39,149 nucleotides of DNA from Bacteroidales bacterium (GTDB lineage Bacteria; Bacteroidota; Bacteroidia; Bacteroidales; UBA12481), in NCBI GenBank assembly GCA_023145515.1, contig JAGLDP010000102.1:1-39149 (forward strand), written 5' to 3'. The stretch's first letter is position 1. Each line of letters opens with the position of its first letter. The notes under the pieces are model-generated. The model ran no database searches. It saw nothing but the letters and a program-made list of their open reading frames with translations, and had not been told where the DNA came from. This document shows, one piece after another, positions 26,160-33,664 of this stretch. A program made the position numbers and the translations under genes.

Positions 26160-28355
26160 CTATTCTCTTTCTCTAGGTGGACGCTGGGGGCGTCTGTCTT
26201 GCGACCGACGATCACCTGATCCTCCTTGTCCTTGCTCTCTTGGAGGTCTTTCCAATAAAGCTTTTCGAGATAGTCTTAATTTATTTGTTTTCGGATCAAC
26301 CTCTATCAGTTTGACTTCGATCTCCTGGCCTTCTTTTAGAACATCCTCGACCTTCTCAATTCGTTTCCAGTCAATTTCTGAGATATGCAGCAATCCATCT
26401 TTCCCAGGAAGAATTTCCACAAAGGCACCAAAGGCAACTATTGATTTCACCTTACCTTTATATATTGTTCCAACTTCTGGCACTGCAACTATGGCATTAA
26501 TCATATCCAGAGCAGCATTAACAGATTCTTTATTATTTGAAGCAATCTCTACGATACCTACGCCATCAGCCTCTTCAATTGAGATTGTAGTTTCTGTCTC
26601 AGCCTGCATCTCCTGAATAATTTTTCCACCAGGTCCGATAACAGCACCAATCATATCTTTAGGAATAGTTATCTTAACAATTCTTGGAACATGAGATTTG
26701 TAATCTTCTCTTGGCTCAGAAATAGTTTCCATCATCTTATCCATGATATGAAAACGTCCATCTTTTGCCTGATTTAATGCCTCGCCCAAAATTTCATATG
26801 ACAATCCATCAACCTTGATATCCATCTGGCAAGCAGTGATACCATCACGCGTTCCGGTAACCTTAAAGTCCATGTCGCCAAGATGATCTTCATCACCCAG
26901 GATATCAGACAATACGGCATACTTGCCTTCTTTATTTATCACCAATCCCATGGCAATACCTGAAACAGGCTTCTTAATTTTAATCCCGGCATCCATCAGA
27001 GCCAGAGTTCCTGCACATACTGTTGCCATTGAACTTGAACCATTAGATTCAAGAATATCGGAAACGATACGAATAACATAAGGATTTTCTTCACCAGTTG
27101 GGATCATAGGCTTCAGAGCTCTTAGAGCCAGATTTCCATGACCAATTTCTCTACGACTAGTACCTCGCATTGGGCGAGCATCACCAGTTGCGAAAGGAGG
27201 GAAGTTATAATGCAGTAAAAGTCGATCTCTTCCTTGCAGCATTACCTCGTCGATGATTTTCTCATCCATCTTGGTTCCCAGAGTTACAGTAGTTAGAGAC
27301 TGAGTCTCTCCTCTGGTAAAAATAGCTGATCCATGTGGAGATGCAAGATAATCGATTTCGCACCAAATCGGACGAATCTCATCAGGTTTTCTGCCATCCA
27401 AACGAACTCTCTCATTTATCAGCAAGGTACGAACAGCTTCCTTCTCAACATCATGGAAGTAGCGCTTAGACATATTAACAACAGCATCTTCAACTTCTTC
27501 ACCCAGAGACTCAATAAACTCATCTCTAACAAGCTTAAAGGCATCAGATCTTTCATGCTTAGGCTTCTGAGCCTTCGCAATGCTATATACCTTTTCGTAG
27601 GTTGCATCCATAACCTTCGCTTTGAGCTCATCATCATTGGTTTCATGAGAATACTCTCTAAAACCTTCAACTCCCAGCTCAGCTTTCAAATCAAGCTGTG
27701 CCTGACACTGCTTCTTGATTTCCTCATGTCCGAACTTAATAGCCTCCAGCATTTCTGCCTCAGAAACCTCAAGCATCTCACCCTCAACCATCATGATGTT
27801 TTCAAGAGTAGCTCCAATCATCATATCCAGATCAGCTTTCTCAAGTTCCTCGGTAGTTGGATTAACCTTCAACTCCCCATCAATACGGGCAACGCGACAC
27901 TCAGAAATTGGTCCGCCAAACGGAATATCAGTCAAAGACATCGCAGCCGAAGCAGCTAATCCTGCCAATGCATCTGGTCGAGCATCAGGATCTGCAGAAA
28001 GCAGATTAATGGTTACAAAAACATCCGCATGGTAATCATCCGGAAATAACGGACGAAGCACACGGTCAACTAACCTGGAAATGAGGATCTCGTTATCGTT
28101 CGGACGAGCCTCACGTCTTAAGAATCCGCCAGGAAAACGACCGTTAGCCGCAAATTTCTCTTTGTATTCAACACTTAAAGGCATAAAGTCAACATCGTTT
28201 CTAGCCTCTTTCGCCGCACATACTGCAGCGAGAATTTTTGTTTTTCCCATGGATACCACAACAGATCCATCAGCCTGTTTAGCTAATTTTCCTGTTTCAA
28301 TGGTAATCTCACGGCCATCATGTAAAGTGATGGTCTTTTGAAATAATTTATACAT
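26160..28355 (-). CDS. pnp: Polynucleotide phosphorylase
   Basis: PNPase degrades RNA 3' to 5' by phosphorolysis. The 731-residue protein has two RNase PH-like domains (about 10-230 and 320-540; RRGEARPND-like [40 protein letters not shown]), a KH domain ([20 protein letters not shown]), an S1 domain ([33 protein letters not shown], quoted here only as [17 protein letters not shown]) and a basic Arg/Pro/Gln-rich tail. It is downstream of rpsO, the classical order, but separated from it by a terminator hairpin. Confidence 0.97.
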
Positions 28356-28426: not shown

Positions 28427-28696
28427 TTATTTACGAAGCTCAAGGGCCTTGACAATAGCACGATAACGCTCAATATCACGATCCTTAAGGTAATTCAACA
28501 ATCTACGACGCTTACCAACCAACCTGATCAGTGCACGCTGAGTGCTGAAATCTTTCTTATTCTTTTTTAAATGTTCTGTCAAATGAGCTATACGGTAGGA
28601 AAATAAAGCTACCTGGCCCTCAGAAGAACCGGTATCAGTATTAGACTTTCCGTACTTCTCGAAAAACTCTTGTTTCTTTTCCGGTGATAAGTACAT
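28427..28696 (-). CDS. rpsO: 30S ribosomal protein S15
   Basis: The 89-residue protein is a full-length S15, a primary 16S rRNA-binding protein of the small-subunit platform. NTDTGSSEGQVALFSYRIAHLTEHLK and the SxRxLxxLVGKRRRLLNYL region (here STQRALIRLVGKRRRLL) are diagnostic. A consensus -7 box lies 50 bases upstream of the ATG. In many bacteria S15 represses its own mRNA through the leader; whether this leader does so cannot be seen here. Confidence 0.98.
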   Translation of the reverse strand: MYLSPEKKQEFFEKYGKSNTDTGSSEGQVALFSYRIAHLTEHLKKNKKDFSTQRALIRLVGKRRRLLNYLKDRDIERYRAIVKALELRK

Positions 28697-28813: not shown

Positions 28814-29677
28814 ATGAAAACACCAGCTACGACTATATTATTAGTGCTAATACTGAGTAGTAATTGCTTTGCTCAGGAATATCTTGGTTTTACCCCAGAG
28901 CTTGGGGTATGCACATCAATCAAAAATCATGAAATTGTGGCCGCTGCTGGCTTTGATTATATTGAAGAATCAGTTGGCAGATTTCTGATTCCCGGAGAGT
29001 CTGAGGAAGCATTTGAAAAAAATCTTGCTATCCTGAAAGAATCCAGCATTCCAATTCGTGCTTGTAATGGATTTCTACCAGGATCCCTGAAAACTACTGG
29101 TCCGGAAACACATCATCCCCAAATTCTGGAATATGCCGAAACAGCTTTCAGAAGAGCTCAGATTGCCGGAATAAAACGAATTGTTTATGGCAGCGGTGGA
29201 TCACGGAATTATCCAGATGGATTTGATCATGAAACAGCCTGGAATCAATTTGCTGAGCTCTTAATTCAAATGGGACCAATTGCTGAAAAGTATGATGTTA
29301 TTATTGCAATCGAACCATTAAGAAAAGGAGAATCAAATCTGATAAACCGTGTGGATGAAGGATTGGAATTAGTTCTGAAGGTTAATCATCCGAATATCCA
29401 GGTTCTGGGAGATATCTTTCACATGATGCGTGAGGATGAAGAACCAGAATCTTTTATCGAAGCTAGAAAATATCTAAAGCATACTCATATTGCTGAAATT
29501 GAGAACAGAACAGCTCCCGGACTAGCTGGCGATGACCTATCTCCATACCTACAGGCCTTAAAGCAAGCTAATTATGAAGGTGGTATTTCTATCGAAGGAG
29601 GTTGGGGTGATAATTTTGAGAAAAACCTGATCATATCAAGGGCATATTTGCAAGGACAGATAAATGCACTTAACTAA
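28814..29677 (+). CDS. Exported sugar phosphate isomerase/epimerase-like TIM-barrel protein
   Basis: A signal peptide (ILLVLILSSNCFAQEY, cleavage near FAQ) precedes a TIM barrel of the AP endonuclease 2 / xylose isomerase-like superfamily. Metal-ligand positions are visible at the expected strand ends: the Glu of IIAIEPL, VLGDIFHM, KHTHIAE and SIEGGWGD. Related proteins isomerise or epimerise sugars or inositols. Export to the periplasm suggests processing of imported oligosaccharide products, but no transport or PUL genes adjoin it. SNC in the signal could also be read as a poor lipobox. Its stop overlaps that of the convergent lipoprotein gene. Confidence 0.85.
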   Translation: MKTPATTILLVLILSSNCFAQEYLGFTPELGVCTSIKNHEIVAAAGFDYIEESVGRFLIPGESEEAFEKNLAILKESSIPIRACNGFLPGSLKTTGPETHHPQILEYAETAFRRAQIAGIKRIVYGSGGSRNYPDGFDHETAWNQFAELLIQMGPIAEKYDVIIAIEPLRKGESNLINRVDEGLELVLKVNHPNIQVLGDIFHMMREDEEPESFIEARKYLKHTHIAEIENRTAPGLAGDDLSPYLQALKQANYEGGISIEGGWGDNFEKNLIISRAYLQGQINALN

Positions 29678-30336
29678 TATTTATAGATAAACTCTCCGAA
29701 CAACATTGACATTACCGGACTACCTCTGAGCCAAAACTTAACTTCATTCTTGTCTGTTTCACGGACAGGTATCAGACTAAAGGCCAACCATTCGTGCAGA
29801 TAAGCTTCGCACATATCTCCATTTCCAATATGCTCGAGCATCAGGTGCAAATCCTCATCTCCTCCCTTATCCATAGCCCACAGATTAAACTGATGAATTG
29901 CACACCCACCTGAATACCCAACATGTAATCGTAATGAATCTCCATCCACATAAACAGTATCTATAGAAAACCCATCAACTGAAGTAGTTCGATCTTTATA
30001 ATCACTCAAATATCTGACATGCCACGGCTTCTTAATGACGTCATTGATTTCTAATATTTTTAATTGCCCCCCTACCAGACCACAATTCAGATATTCTCTT
30101 AATACCTTTGCCTTATACCAAATATCTAATCCCTCTTTCAGAAACTCTTCAGGCAAACTAACTGCAGAATATGAAACACCCTCAGAAATAATAAGCCAAC
30201 CACAACCATCAGCCGCAACCTGTCCGGAAAAAGTAACCACTCCCTCTTCCCAATCTGTCCCCAGTAACTCCTTATCCTTCTCACAAGAAACCACCAAGAA
30301 TGACAAAACCAATAACAATGAACTAAATACTCTCAT
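29674..30336 (-). CDS. Lipoprotein of unknown function
   Basis: The lipobox is VVSC (Cys18 from the ATG at 30336). The mature protein starts with an OB-like beta segment (EEGVVTFSGQVAADGCGWLII), and later contains YSGGCAIHQFNLWAMD and MCEAYLHEWLAFSL, a spaced Cys/His pattern seen in unnamed Bacteroidota lipoproteins. I do not recognise a Pfam family. The track start at 30411 reads through a 7-base microsatellite and into the neighbouring gene; the ATG at 30336 gives a normal lipoprotein signal. It is the last gene of the minus-strand block and its stop overlaps the convergent TIM-barrel gene by three bases. Confidence 0.8.
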   Translation of the reverse strand: MRVFSSLLLVLSFLVVSCEKDKELLGTDWEEGVVTFSGQVAADGCGWLIISEGVSYSAVSLPEEFLKEGLDIWYKAKVLREYLNCGLVGGQLKILEINDVIKKPWHVRYLSDYKDRTTSVDGFSIDTVYVDGDSLRLHVGYSGGCAIHQFNLWAMDKGGDEDLHLMLEHIGNGDMCEAYLHEWLAFSLIPVRETDKNEVKFWLRGSPVMSMLFGEFIYKY

Positions 30337-30350
30337 AAAATAAATATTAA

Positions 30351-30396
30351 CGACCGACAAACGACGAATAACGAATAACGAACGACGAATAATGAT
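30351..30396. repeat. 7-bp microsatellite upstream of the 29674 lipoprotein gene
   Basis: Heptamers CGACGAA, TAACGAA, TAACGAA, CGACGAA and a degenerate TAATGAT run in tandem from 30362, preceded by CGACCGA. The array fills the 59-bp gap between two minus-strand lipoprotein genes and lies 15-60 bases upstream of the downstream gene's ATG. Confidence 0.8.
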
Positions 30397-30908
30397 TACC
30401 TCTCCCCCCAAGGATAATAATCACGATCCTGACAAATCTCTCCAGACAAATCCTCCTCCAGATCAATCTCAAAAACCAAAGGCAGATTAGGTTCAATTAC
30501 ATATCTCTCAAGAAATTTCACAACATATTTTTGAGCTCTGAGATTATGAACTACAAAATCAATATCATATAAACAATTACACCTGCATAATTGCATAGAG
30601 TCGCGTTCTGTTACATACAAAGTATCTCCACTAATATTCATGGAAGTAAGGATTGCTTCAGGACAACAATTAAACCCGGCATTATAGTGAGTCATCATAA
30701 GAGTGCTATCTCCATCATACTCCCAAACCACACAACTCTGATCCTTGCCAGGCTTATCAGACTTCAAAGGATCAAAGCCCTTACATACCATATCATAAGA
30801 AGCTGACAGTGCAGGGTCTGGAAGAATCGGATCTCCCTTATTACAAGAAACAAATAAGCCGATAACTCCTATTAATAAAAAAAGAATGATAGATTTCAGA
30901 TTATTCAT
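30396..30908 (-). CDS. Cysteine-patterned lipoprotein, copy 1 (downstream of serpin)
   Basis: Lipobox FVSC (Cys22), then a mature domain with DGDSTLMMTHYNAGFNCCPE, LCRCNCLYDIDF and a C-terminal GEIC...YYPWGER. It is a clear paralogue of the gene at 32237: the cysteine spacing is C-x16-C-x21-CC-x25-C-x-C-x-C-x46-C against x47 in the last interval of the other. Eight cysteines in an exported protein suggest four disulfides or a metal site. I do not recognise a named domain; function is unknown. It starts 34 bp after the serpin stop and is likely cotranscribed with it. Confidence 0.8.
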   Translation of the reverse strand: MNNLKSIILFLLIGVIGLFVSCNKGDPILPDPALSASYDMVCKGFDPLKSDKPGKDQSCVVWEYDGDSTLMMTHYNAGFNCCPEAILTSMNISGDTLYVTERDSMQLCRCNCLYDIDFVVHNLRAQKYVVKFLERYVIEPNLPLVFEIDLEEDLSGEICQDRDYYPWGER

Positions 30909-30942
30909 GATTGTGTATATAGTTGATCTAAAGCAAAGTTAA

Positions 30943-32160
30943 TCAATTTTCTTCTGCCGGATTCATTACACGACCAGCAAAAAGTATTGTACCAGATGAT
31001 TTCTCAGCAATGGCAAAAAGGAAAGGTCGGTTAGCAGAAAAGAAATTGCCGATACTGGTAAGCACTATTTCAACAGATGTAACGGCTGCAGCTTCTGTTC
31101 CTTCCTCATTCACCTCTATAAACGACTTGTGTTTAACATCACTAATCATCAACTGTCCACTCTCAAGTATACCCGAAAAATCAGCTGCAGATGTAAATGC
31201 CACTTCCATACCCATAGCCTTCAAAACCTTTGAAAGACTAGTTTCATAAGCATATTTGAAGCGAGGTATCTGAACAGTAACATCAGTCATCTCAGCAAAG
31301 CCTGACATCCAGGTATTCCAGTTATCTGATGTAAATGCCTCAGACACTTCTTTCAGAGTTCTATCTTGATTTGGCAAAAACAGAAACATACTCCAGTTTC
31401 CTTTACCGTAGGGCAACTCCAGGGCTGTGAACAAGTTGTTTTGCAGCATATTTGCATCGAGATCCATTGTCATCATAGGAATCTCAACTGACTGATTTTC
31501 ATTGATATAAAACATGGATTCATGTGTCAGCTTATCATCAAACTCATAACGCCAGGCCCCTTTAAAATAGATAGCATTAATCAGGAACATGAAAGAATCA
31601 GGACTAATCTCATCAACAATCTTATCGATTTTTTCATGTGTCTTTTCAGACACCCAATCATTGATTACATCAACAGTTTCAGGGTCGCTAAAATCCATTG
31701 CCCGGACTACTGCATTATAATAATTCTGATTTCTGTCAATGAAGTCTGATTTAACATCAAACCCATCTTTGTACCAGATTGAATTGGCAATTTCTAAGAT
31801 TACCTGAGGGTCATGTGCTAACAAGGCAGCAACTAATTGCTTATTCAATTCATTAATCTCCTCGCGTGATAGTCCGGTCATCTCCATAACCTCCTCCATG
31901 GCAAATTTGGTATCACCCTCAGCCCCGTTATAAGTCATTGATAAAGCAAGCGAAACACTGAGAGGAGAAATCATCACATTTTCATCTGCCTCTTCAGCCT
32001 CCAGCACTGCCCTAAAAAGATTCAATCCGAAAGCATTACTAGAACCTATTAGTTCTTGCGATTTCAAAGGCAGATTCAAAGGCCTTGGCTCCTCTCCCTT
32101 GTCACAAGAAACTATAATCGAAGTAAGAAAAACAATTATTATTGTTAAAAAATATTTCAT
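30943..32160 (-). CDS. Serpin-family protease inhibitor lipoprotein
   Basis: Serpins trap serine or cysteine proteases by a cleaved reactive loop. The protein has a lipobox (IVSC, Cys19) followed by DKGEE, compatible with surface display in Bacteroidota, and a complete serpin fold: NVMISPLSVSLALSMTYNGA, FLINAIYFKGAWRYEF and the C-terminal RPFLFAIAEKSSGTILFAGRVMNP. The hinge EEGTEAAAVT (residues 352-361) has the small-residue pattern of inhibitory serpins. Counting as in alpha-1-antitrypsin puts P1-P1' at Thr368-Ser369. It is flanked on both sides by paralogous Cys-rich lipoproteins, and a 7-bp repeat precedes the gene. Confidence 0.93.
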   Translation of the reverse strand: MKYFLTIIIVFLTSIIVSCDKGEEPRPLNLPLKSQELIGSSNAFGLNLFRAVLEAEEADENVMISPLSVSLALSMTYNGAEGDTKFAMEEVMEMTGLSREEINELNKQLVAALLAHDPQVILEIANSIWYKDGFDVKSDFIDRNQNYYNAVVRAMDFSDPETVDVINDWVSEKTHEKIDKIVDEISPDSFMFLINAIYFKGAWRYEFDDKLTHESMFYINENQSVEIPMMTMDLDANMLQNNLFTALELPYGKGNWSMFLFLPNQDRTLKEVSEAFTSDNWNTWMSGFAEMTDVTVQIPRFKYAYETSLSKVLKAMGMEVAFTSAADFSGILESGQLMISDVKHKSFIEVNEEGTEAAAVTSVEIVLTSIGNFFSANRPFLFAIAEKSSGTILFAGRVMNPAEEN

Positions 32161-32190
32161 GCTATTGTAATAAAACGATTAATAATTAAA

Positions 32191-32230
32191 CCTTGCGCCT
32201 TGTGCCTTGTGCCTTGTGCCTTGCGCCTTC
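32191..32230. repeat. 7-bp microsatellite upstream of the serpin gene
   Basis: Units CCTTGCG, CCTTGTG x3, CCTTGCG and a partial CCTTC run in perfect register. On the coding strand of the serpin the unit is CACAAGG. The array ends 30 bases before the serpin ATG and lies between two minus-strand genes. Confidence 0.9.
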
Positions 32231-32236
32231 TACCAA

Positions 32237-32743
32237 TCATATCCCCCAGGGATAATGTGAGCGACTCACACAAAATTCGCCAGATCCGGCCTTTGTCAGA
32301 TCGATCTGATCTTCTAATCGTGGATCATCTGATTGTCTGACATAAGGCTCATCTACCGTAATGTGATAGATTCCCGGAGGAAGAGGTTGAATTGTGAAAT
32401 GCAAATCATACAAGCAATTACAATCACATAAACCATCTCGTTCAGACTCCGTTATATAAATGGTATCATTCCGTATGTCCACTTTCACAATAAACTCTTC
32501 AGGACAACAATTGAACCCGGCATTTATGTGAGTCATGGTCAGTATACTATCTCCGTCGAACTCAAACGAAAGACAATCTGTATCATTGGGATAATCTGAA
32601 TCTGTTTTTGGAGTAAAATCTTTACACCCACCCACTTTTTCCAGAGATACTTCTGGGTCTTGCCATTCTCTTGGCTGCTCTTTAGTGCAGGCATACAGTA
32701 GAAAGAAAAACACCAGGATTGTTGTGCTCGCTACTAGTTTCAT
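32237..32743 (-). CDS. Cysteine-patterned lipoprotein, copy 2 (upstream of serpin)
   Basis: Lipobox LYAC (Cys19). The mature domain has DGDSILTMTHINAGFNCCPE, LCDCNCLYDLHF and GEFC...HYPWGI, paralogous to the 30396 gene with identical cysteine spacing apart from one residue in the last interval. Outside the motif blocks the two are clearly diverged (for instance LEKVGGCKDFTP against YDMVCKGFDP), so this is not a recent duplication. Function is unknown; an envelope role beside the serpin is inferred from synteny only. It follows the RmlD-like gene by 12 bp. Confidence 0.8.
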   Translation of the reverse strand: MKLVASTTILVFFFLLYACTKEQPREWQDPEVSLEKVGGCKDFTPKTDSDYPNDTDCLSFEFDGDSILTMTHINAGFNCCPEEFIVKVDIRNDTIYITESERDGLCDCNCLYDLHFTIQPLPPGIYHITVDEPYVRQSDDPRLEDQIDLTKAGSGEFCVSRSHYPWGI

Positions 32744-32755
32744 ATTAAGGAATTG

Positions 32756-33664
32756 CTATTTCATCTCTTCAAGCAAATTCTGTACCACAGTTAGGCCCTG
32801 GTTGAAGTTTTTTGGCTGGTAACCCAGTTCGGTGCGTGCCTTATCAAGAATAAATCCTGTATTTGGCGGACGTTTACCTGGCTGATTTAGCTCTGAAGAA
32901 TGAATAGGGCTAATCAAACTGGTATCCAAATCAAAAAACTGTGCTATTTCGATTGCCAGTTCCAGGATACTTCTGTAATCAGACCCTGACAAGTGATAAA
33001 TACCCTGTTTCTCCAAATCCATAATCCTAATAACACCCCAAACCAAATCATTAACAAGAGTTGGCATTCTGAACTGATCCTCCACTACTCTGATTGCCTG
33101 TTTCTTTTCAAGAGATTCCTTAACCCATAAAACAAGGTTTGAGCGACTCATGGCAGGAGTTAATCCATAAACCAGAATTGTTCTGACGATAGCCCATGGA
33201 ACATTAATGCTTTGAGTAATCTTTTCGCCCTCAAGTTTTGACCATCCGTAATGACTAACCGGATTAAGAATATCATCCTCCTTGTAAGGACCGCCCTCAC
33301 CATCAAACACAAAATCGGTAGAGATATAAATAAATTTCGCTCCACAACTTGCAGACAGATCCGCCATATTACGGGTTCCTTCTACATTCACCTTTGTACA
33401 AAGATCAGGATTCAGCTCACAGGGATCAACCTGAGTCATGGCAGCACCATGAATTACTATATCAGGACAAAAATACTCAGGAATATCCAGTACGTTCTGT
33501 CTTTGTGACAAATCAATTTGCTTGAAGCTGTAGCCTGATTGGCATGGATAGAGGTCAGGTGATTTTGATATCGCCAGAATCTGACAATCGTGCCTTGGGA
33601 TTAACTGATCCAGAAGATTTTGTCCTAATAATCCATTAGATCCGCTTATCAAAATTTTCTTCAT
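32756..33664 (-). CDS. RmlD-like SDR sugar nucleotide reductase
   Basis: The protein is an extended short-chain dehydrogenase of the dTDP-4-dehydrorhamnose reductase (RmlD) type: Rossmann motif ILISGSNGLLGQNLLDQL, IVIHGAAMTQVDPCE, FIYISTDFVFDGEGGPYKE and the catalytic YGWSK (Tyr and Lys present). Typical RmlD reduces dTDP-4-keto-rhamnose with NAD(P)H. No rmlA, rmlB or rmlC is nearby, so the substrate could be another nucleotide sugar. At 302 residues it is normal length. It is 6 bp downstream of the potassium channel gene. Confidence 0.87.
   Translation of the reverse strand: MKKILISGSNGLLGQNLLDQLIPRHDCQILAISKSPDLYPCQSGYSFKQIDLSQRQNVLDIPEYFCPDIVIHGAAMTQVDPCELNPDLCTKVNVEGTRNMADLSASCGAKFIYISTDFVFDGEGGPYKEDDILNPVSHYGWSKLEGEKITQSINVPWAIVRTILVYGLTPAMSRSNLVLWVKESLEKKQAIRVVEDQFRMPTLVNDLVWGVIRIMDLEKQGIYHLSGSDYRSILELAIEIAQFFDLDTSLISPIHSSELNQPGKRPPNTGFILDKARTELGYQPKNFNQGLTVVQNLLEEMK

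Follow-up and report, generated by a model that had tools for sequence, protein, structure and literature searches.

A serpin between two eight-cysteine lipoproteins in Bacteroidales: a candidate envelope-stress set of surface lipoproteins

Introduction

Why would a bacterium keep the gene for a serpin between two genes for paralogous, cysteine-rich lipoproteins? The question is raised by a 39,149-nucleotide stretch of DNA (referred to here as the window) that lies on contig C5 of a Bacteroidales genome (G000) which is 63% complete. A preliminary description of this locus had cast the flanking proteins as cofactors, docking partners or protected clients of the serpin. We consider it reasonably probable that the island is, instead, an envelope-stress set of surface lipoproteins, whose members form an ECF sigma factor regulon in other Bacteroidales and an operon-like run here.

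Layout of the lipoprotein island

32756..33664, minus strand: RmlD-like sugar-nucleotide reductase directly upstream of A (ORF; flank kept in most loci of the window's family)
32237..32743, minus strand: lipoprotein A, 168 aa, with signal peptide, lipobox C19, eight-cysteine beta domain and YPWGI end (ORF, translation, cysteine spacing, AF2 model)
32191..32229, no strand assigned: CCTTGTG heptamer repeat between A and the serpin gene (sequence repeat)
30943..32160, minus strand: inhibitory-type serpin lipoprotein, 405 aa, reactive loop ...VEIVLTSIGNFF (PF00079; nearest solved structure miropin 5ncs)
30396..30908, minus strand: lipoprotein B, 170 aa, paralogue of A, with lipobox C22 and YPWGER end (identity to A, B clade support)
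29674..30336, minus strand: NigD-like lipoprotein, 220 aa, N-terminal OB-like domain with DGCGW motif (sub-cutoff NF051862 match, fold matches)
28427..28696, minus strand: rpsO, flank at the other side of the island (ORF; syntenic in family loci)
26160-28355: pnp, after rpsO

The island genes are co-directional. Read in the direction of transcription, A comes first and is followed by the serpin gene, B and the NigD-like gene, the successive gaps being 76, 34 and 59 bp; the RmlD-like gene precedes the four, and rpsO-pnp comes after them. All four encoded proteins possess a signal peptide and a lipobox cysteine, and the original report of four consecutive small lipoprotein genes, three of them arranged as paralogue-serpin-paralogue, is thus borne out. 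The fourth gene starts at the ATG at position 30336 and not at an upstream TTG. Lipoprotein A begins 12 bp downstream of the end of the RmlD-like gene, which is probably carried on the same transcript. Another intergenic space of the island contains an ACGAATA-type short tandem repeat (window 30348-30392), and a gene for a secreted TIM-barrel, sugar-isomerase-like protein, present in only some relatives, runs convergent with the island (window 28814-29677, plus strand). A plasmid search gave no match, and PADLOC reported nothing.

The serpin

The serpin matches PF00079 across residues 41-401 (E 3.5e-116, 388.9 bits), that is, over the full-length fold. Prokaryotic serpins have been reviewed, and inhibitory members share the hinge consensus ExGTEAAAA (PMC8233489); the P17-P9 stretch of the window protein, EEGTEAAAV (residues 352-360), comes close to this consensus within the hinge EEGTEAAAVT (residues 352-361). 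Judged by hinge and loop length, the protein is predicted to be of the inhibitory type. Its closest solved structure is miropin from Tannerella forsythia (PDB 5ncs; E 1.3e-84), which has the same EEGTEAAAVT hinge, and whose loop segment VEMVKTS aligns to VEIVLTS of the window serpin. Miropin carries a Lys in its loop, presumably cleaved at Lys-Thr, where the window serpin has a Leu, and a different protease preference is therefore expected. Unlike miropin, the window serpin is found in an apparent operon with A, B and the NigD-like gene. We considered the conserved Thr-Ser of the loop as the mark of a family-specific target and rejected it, since the same residues occur across a large clade of serpins from the entire order. 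Bacterial serpins had been portrayed as sporadic; this does not apply to the order studied here, in which 169 of 386 genomes encode one. A second, diverged serpin with a different reactive loop accompanies the first at family loci L029, L031, L024, L026 and L291.

The eight-cysteine lipoproteins A and B

The cysteine spacing attributed to both paralogues was found exactly as claimed: C40-x16-C57-x21-CC-x25-CxCxC-x47-C158 in A, and the same pattern with x46 in B. The two proteins are 41% identical (E 8e-40), and the pattern is conserved far beyond chance, since 124 of 131 complete domains of relatives retain all eight cysteines. The AF2 model of A is confident (pLDDT 91.5) and all-beta. Assignment of the disulfides is partial: in complete domains C80 and C106 are lost together in three of three cases, and C57 and C158 in three of five, so that co-losses point to a C80-C106 bond and, less firmly, to a C57-C158 bond. 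An aligned group of relatives (f11) retains only C80 and C106 of the eight.

Searches of Pfam and NCBIfam placed A and B in no family, PDB sequences held no relative, and a fold search of the PDB and viral libraries returned nothing significant. In agreement with the preliminary description, the eight-cysteine family is apparently without a published account. Of 393 genomes of the order searched with a profile, 46 contain it, and a scan of a genome collection confirmed 156 relatives, 80 of which were kept. Homologues occur in Bacteroidota, Ignavibacteria, Zixibacteria, Latescibacterota, Krumholzibacteriota, Acidobacteriota, Aminicenantes and a Desulfamplus, either as single domains with a lipobox, as tandem copies, or behind dockerin-like repeats; the last arrangement, with dockerin-type repeats preceding the eight-cysteine domain, is seen in Zixibacteria (L091, L140, L155).

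In the phylogenetic tree A falls into a clade of its own (support 0.65), as does B (0.998), and the two are joined in one clade (0.96). Judged by this tree, A and B are the products of one duplication that preceded the diversification of the window's family.

The NigD-like lipoprotein and the possibility of an inhibitor battery

The fourth lipoprotein matches NF051862 with an E-value of 8e-7 and 29 bits, below the curated cutoff of 60 bits, which its homologues in L151 and L187 do exceed (62.7 and 62.6 bits). It shares its fold with the NigD1/NigD2 lipoproteins (NF051862; PDB 4pqx, 3qwn), from which it differs by this score; the fold matches to 3k6o and 4pqx reach an E-value of 2.7e-8, with a TM score of only about 0.4 and a model pLDDT of 77.5.

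The OB-like N-terminal domain may also resemble potempins A and D in fold; the potempins of T. forsythia are small lipoproteins described as inhibitors of a neighboring protease (PMC7296668). The island might accordingly be viewed as an inhibitor battery in the manner of miropin and the potempins, with A and B as protease inhibitors in their own right: these are small, disulfide-rich, secreted beta domains that share a locus with a serpin, and one relative, a Zixibacteria protein with a C25-peptidase-like region (L095:5486-7768; a single case), carries the domain at its C-terminus. Yet A and B match no inhibitor family or fold, and the potempin resemblance, despite a match probability of 1.0, has E-values of 0.025 and worse, involves a common fold, was obtained with the pLDDT 77.5 model and has no counterpart in sequence. 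Moreover, no protease gene adjoining the island was found among the ORFs of the window or at the family loci. We therefore regard an inhibitor battery as unlikely.

Conservation of the arrangement and linkage to serpins

Synteny of the locus extends over four genera of the window's family, and the claim that the arrangement has long been kept is upheld by this synteny and by the tree of A and B, with the proviso that the arrangement is not invariant. The syntenic site of G010 holds two serpins and the NigD-like gene and neither A nor B; A is missing in G008 and at the G002 locus, the NigD-like gene is missing in G003, and several family genomes have an additional serpin. The housekeeping flanks are as syntenic as the island itself, so that the arrangement by itself says little about function.

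Outside the family, a serpin lies within 10 kb at only 1 of 74 A/B loci (from the kept relatives, some on short contigs), and among 60 sampled serpin loci A/B genes turned up in one genome only (G351). The finding that homologues would be mostly orphans, named beforehand as the one that would count against a partnership, has thus largely materialized. No clear recurrent neighbors of orphan A/B genes emerged. Linkage to serpins nevertheless recurs: G154 encodes a fused double-domain A/B protein, G351 has two A/B and three serpin genes on one contig, and JANTGF010000052.1 provides a further case. Neither the A/B tree nor the serpin tree places any of the three as a sister group of the window's family, and the linked serpins scatter in the latter tree; the linkages therefore look independent, and the serpin tree was rejected as evidence of co-inheritance. 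About 0.09 chance linkages were expected in the sample of the order and two were observed (P 0.004). A serpin is present in 14 of 19 A/B genomes against a background of 43% (p 0.005, kinship ignored). L151, G185 and G268 each have a NigD-like gene linked to a serpin, and in G257 (L263:9340-10150) an A/B homologue directly adjoins a NigD-like OB-domain lipoprotein with no serpin nearby.

These data bear directly on the idea that A and B serve the adjoining serpin as dedicated cofactors, docking partners or clients. It draws on the synteny of A-serpin-B through most of the family, on the retention of both copies since a single duplication, and on the above-chance linkage in the three other lineages. 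We deem it improbable, since serpins persist without A and B (G010) or without A (G008), no serpin comes within 10 kb of A/B at 73 of the 74 loci outside the family, and tandem and multidomain forms exist in phyla with no serpin near. Linkage alone as proof of partnership was likewise rejected, given the equally syntenic flanks and the many orphans. What survives of the proposal is a looser functional association, indicated by the recurrent linkage and by a common ECF-type promoter motif. Defense against host proteases, also envisaged at the outset, is not favored: no record title of a named A/B family member mentions a host, although such titles are weak evidence of habitat.

ECF sigma/anti-sigma pairs and a shared promoter motif

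When the neighbors of serpins were clustered, many serpins turned out to lie beside an ECF sigma factor and a large protein resembling an anti-sigma factor. The sigma factor, whose identity was confirmed by Pfam, directly adjoins the serpin in 10 of 62 loci, with two more in a further sample, compared with 1 of 318 control genes (Fisher 1.5e-5). Nearly all of these pairs are divergent, and in most the anti-sigma gene follows that of the sigma factor. The anti-sigma proteins run from a cytosolic end through a single membrane helix and a long tether to an outer-membrane barrel; the C-terminus is OMP_b-brl_2 in three of five examined. By this layout they fit the published description of Dma (PMC13088901), and a number of serpin loci outside the window's family thus carry the Dma/Das-type arrangement of an ECF sigma factor followed by a barrel-ended anti-sigma with a membrane helix.

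With a loose pattern, the motif GCAACC-N16-CATCT was found on both strands and sides of 11 of the 14 intergenic regions; the strict motif has two matches in 718 kb of control windows, both strands counted. A matrix trained on the sigma-side sites only was run over every gene of the fetched loci, the cutoff being the 99.5% threshold of the other genes. It matched upstream of 11 of 20 A/B genes (12 of 21 entries, one gene being double-counted) and of 11 of 2119 other genes (p 2e-20), where the controls stem from the same fetched loci in which the motif was found post hoc and the counts ignore phylogeny. G351 is among the training sites; without it the motif precedes 9 of 18 A/B genes. The A/B genes that possess it are mostly unlinked to serpins. 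Of 85 serpins, 21 pass the matrix, and 13 of these have no sigma pair as a neighbor (p 4e-14). G351 holds six strict matches in 5.1 Mb, both A/B genes being among the sites, and in G162 the motif precedes the sigma gene, the serpin gene and, on a separate contig, an A/B gene. A NigD-like gene of G276 has it 33 bp upstream, and a NigD-like lipoprotein with a DGCG motif (G207) is among the few other genes that pass the matrix. The motif is absent at about half of the A/B genes of the order and at nearly all outside Bacteroidota. It also precedes genes for small lipoproteins at L066:12633-13157, L069:2230-2745 and L072:13660-14142, possibly further regulon members.

NigD lipoproteins are known members of envelope-stress regulons controlled by an ECF sigma factor and an outer-membrane-spanning anti-sigma (PMC9308784, PMC13088901, PMC13114119). 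The Dma/Das and EcfO/Reo systems described in these papers share with the serpin loci the ECF sigma factor, the barrel-ended anti-sigma and NigD-like surface lipoproteins in the regulon. They differ in that serpins have no occurrence in the main texts and the eight-cysteine family is undescribed, and the window's own family lacks the pair. A search of open-licence papers found none that ties serpins to such sigma systems.

The possibility that the cluster is a chance-inherited run of lipoprotein genes, with an adjacency devoid of functional meaning, agrees with the equally syntenic flanks and with the coming and going of A, B, the NigD-like gene and the second serpin, but is rendered rather improbable by the relinking of the same families in unrelated lineages and by their common promoter motif when unlinked.

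Apparent absence of the sigma circuit from the window's family

Neither the sigma pair nor the promoter motif that characterizes a Dma/Das regulon is found at the window locus: GCAACC-N16-CATCT has no match in the whole window, nor upstream of the operon genes in the scanned relatives. In six of seven family genomes searched no Dma-like protein was found, and the seventh, G004, gives weak partial hits only. The absence of Dma from G000 is in itself weak evidence because this genome is only 63% complete, but, apart from the weak hits in G004, the same picture is given by the other six family genomes, of which five are at least 94% complete. With neither the motif nor a strong Dma-like protein, the regulon reading therefore extends to the window by homology only. 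The simplest reading of these sequences is that the lineage of the window lost the circuit, or never had it, and kept the members as one operon.

A proposed envelope-stress function

An envelope-stress set is favored by the promoter motif common to unlinked families, by the pairing of serpins with sigma factors, and by the repeated relinking of the genes. That one stress-type promoter motif recurs in these families even when their genes are far apart suggests a common response to surface damage. A single ECF sigma regulon would, in many Bacteroidales of this order, include the serpin, the eight-cysteine lipoprotein and some NigD-like proteins as separate members, with the sigma gene divergent from that of the serpin or A/B and followed by that of a Dma-type anti-sigma. 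Damage to the outer membrane would release the sigma factor, and the induced lipoproteins would be displayed on the cell surface. There a serine or cysteine protease, attacking or misdirected, may take the loop of the serpin as bait and be trapped, while A/B, as a rigid, disulfide-braced beta domain, would act in parallel as a binding or protective surface protein rather than as a required partner of the serpin. In the window's family an operon would have replaced the regulon, and A/B was duplicated. More tentatively, and with considerable doubt, we suggest that the barrel-ended anti-sigma itself senses the damage and induces the serpin together with an eight-cysteine protective effector, and that the window's lineage lost this sensor and gathered the effectors in an operon.

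If a promoter and a sensor pair beside bacterial serpins are indeed what they seem, these serpins would respond to envelope damage. Such a response would bear on the question of why free-living bacteria keep serpins at all, for which the proposals made so far center on hosts. For the widespread and strongly conserved eight-cysteine family, the shared motif would provide a first functional context.
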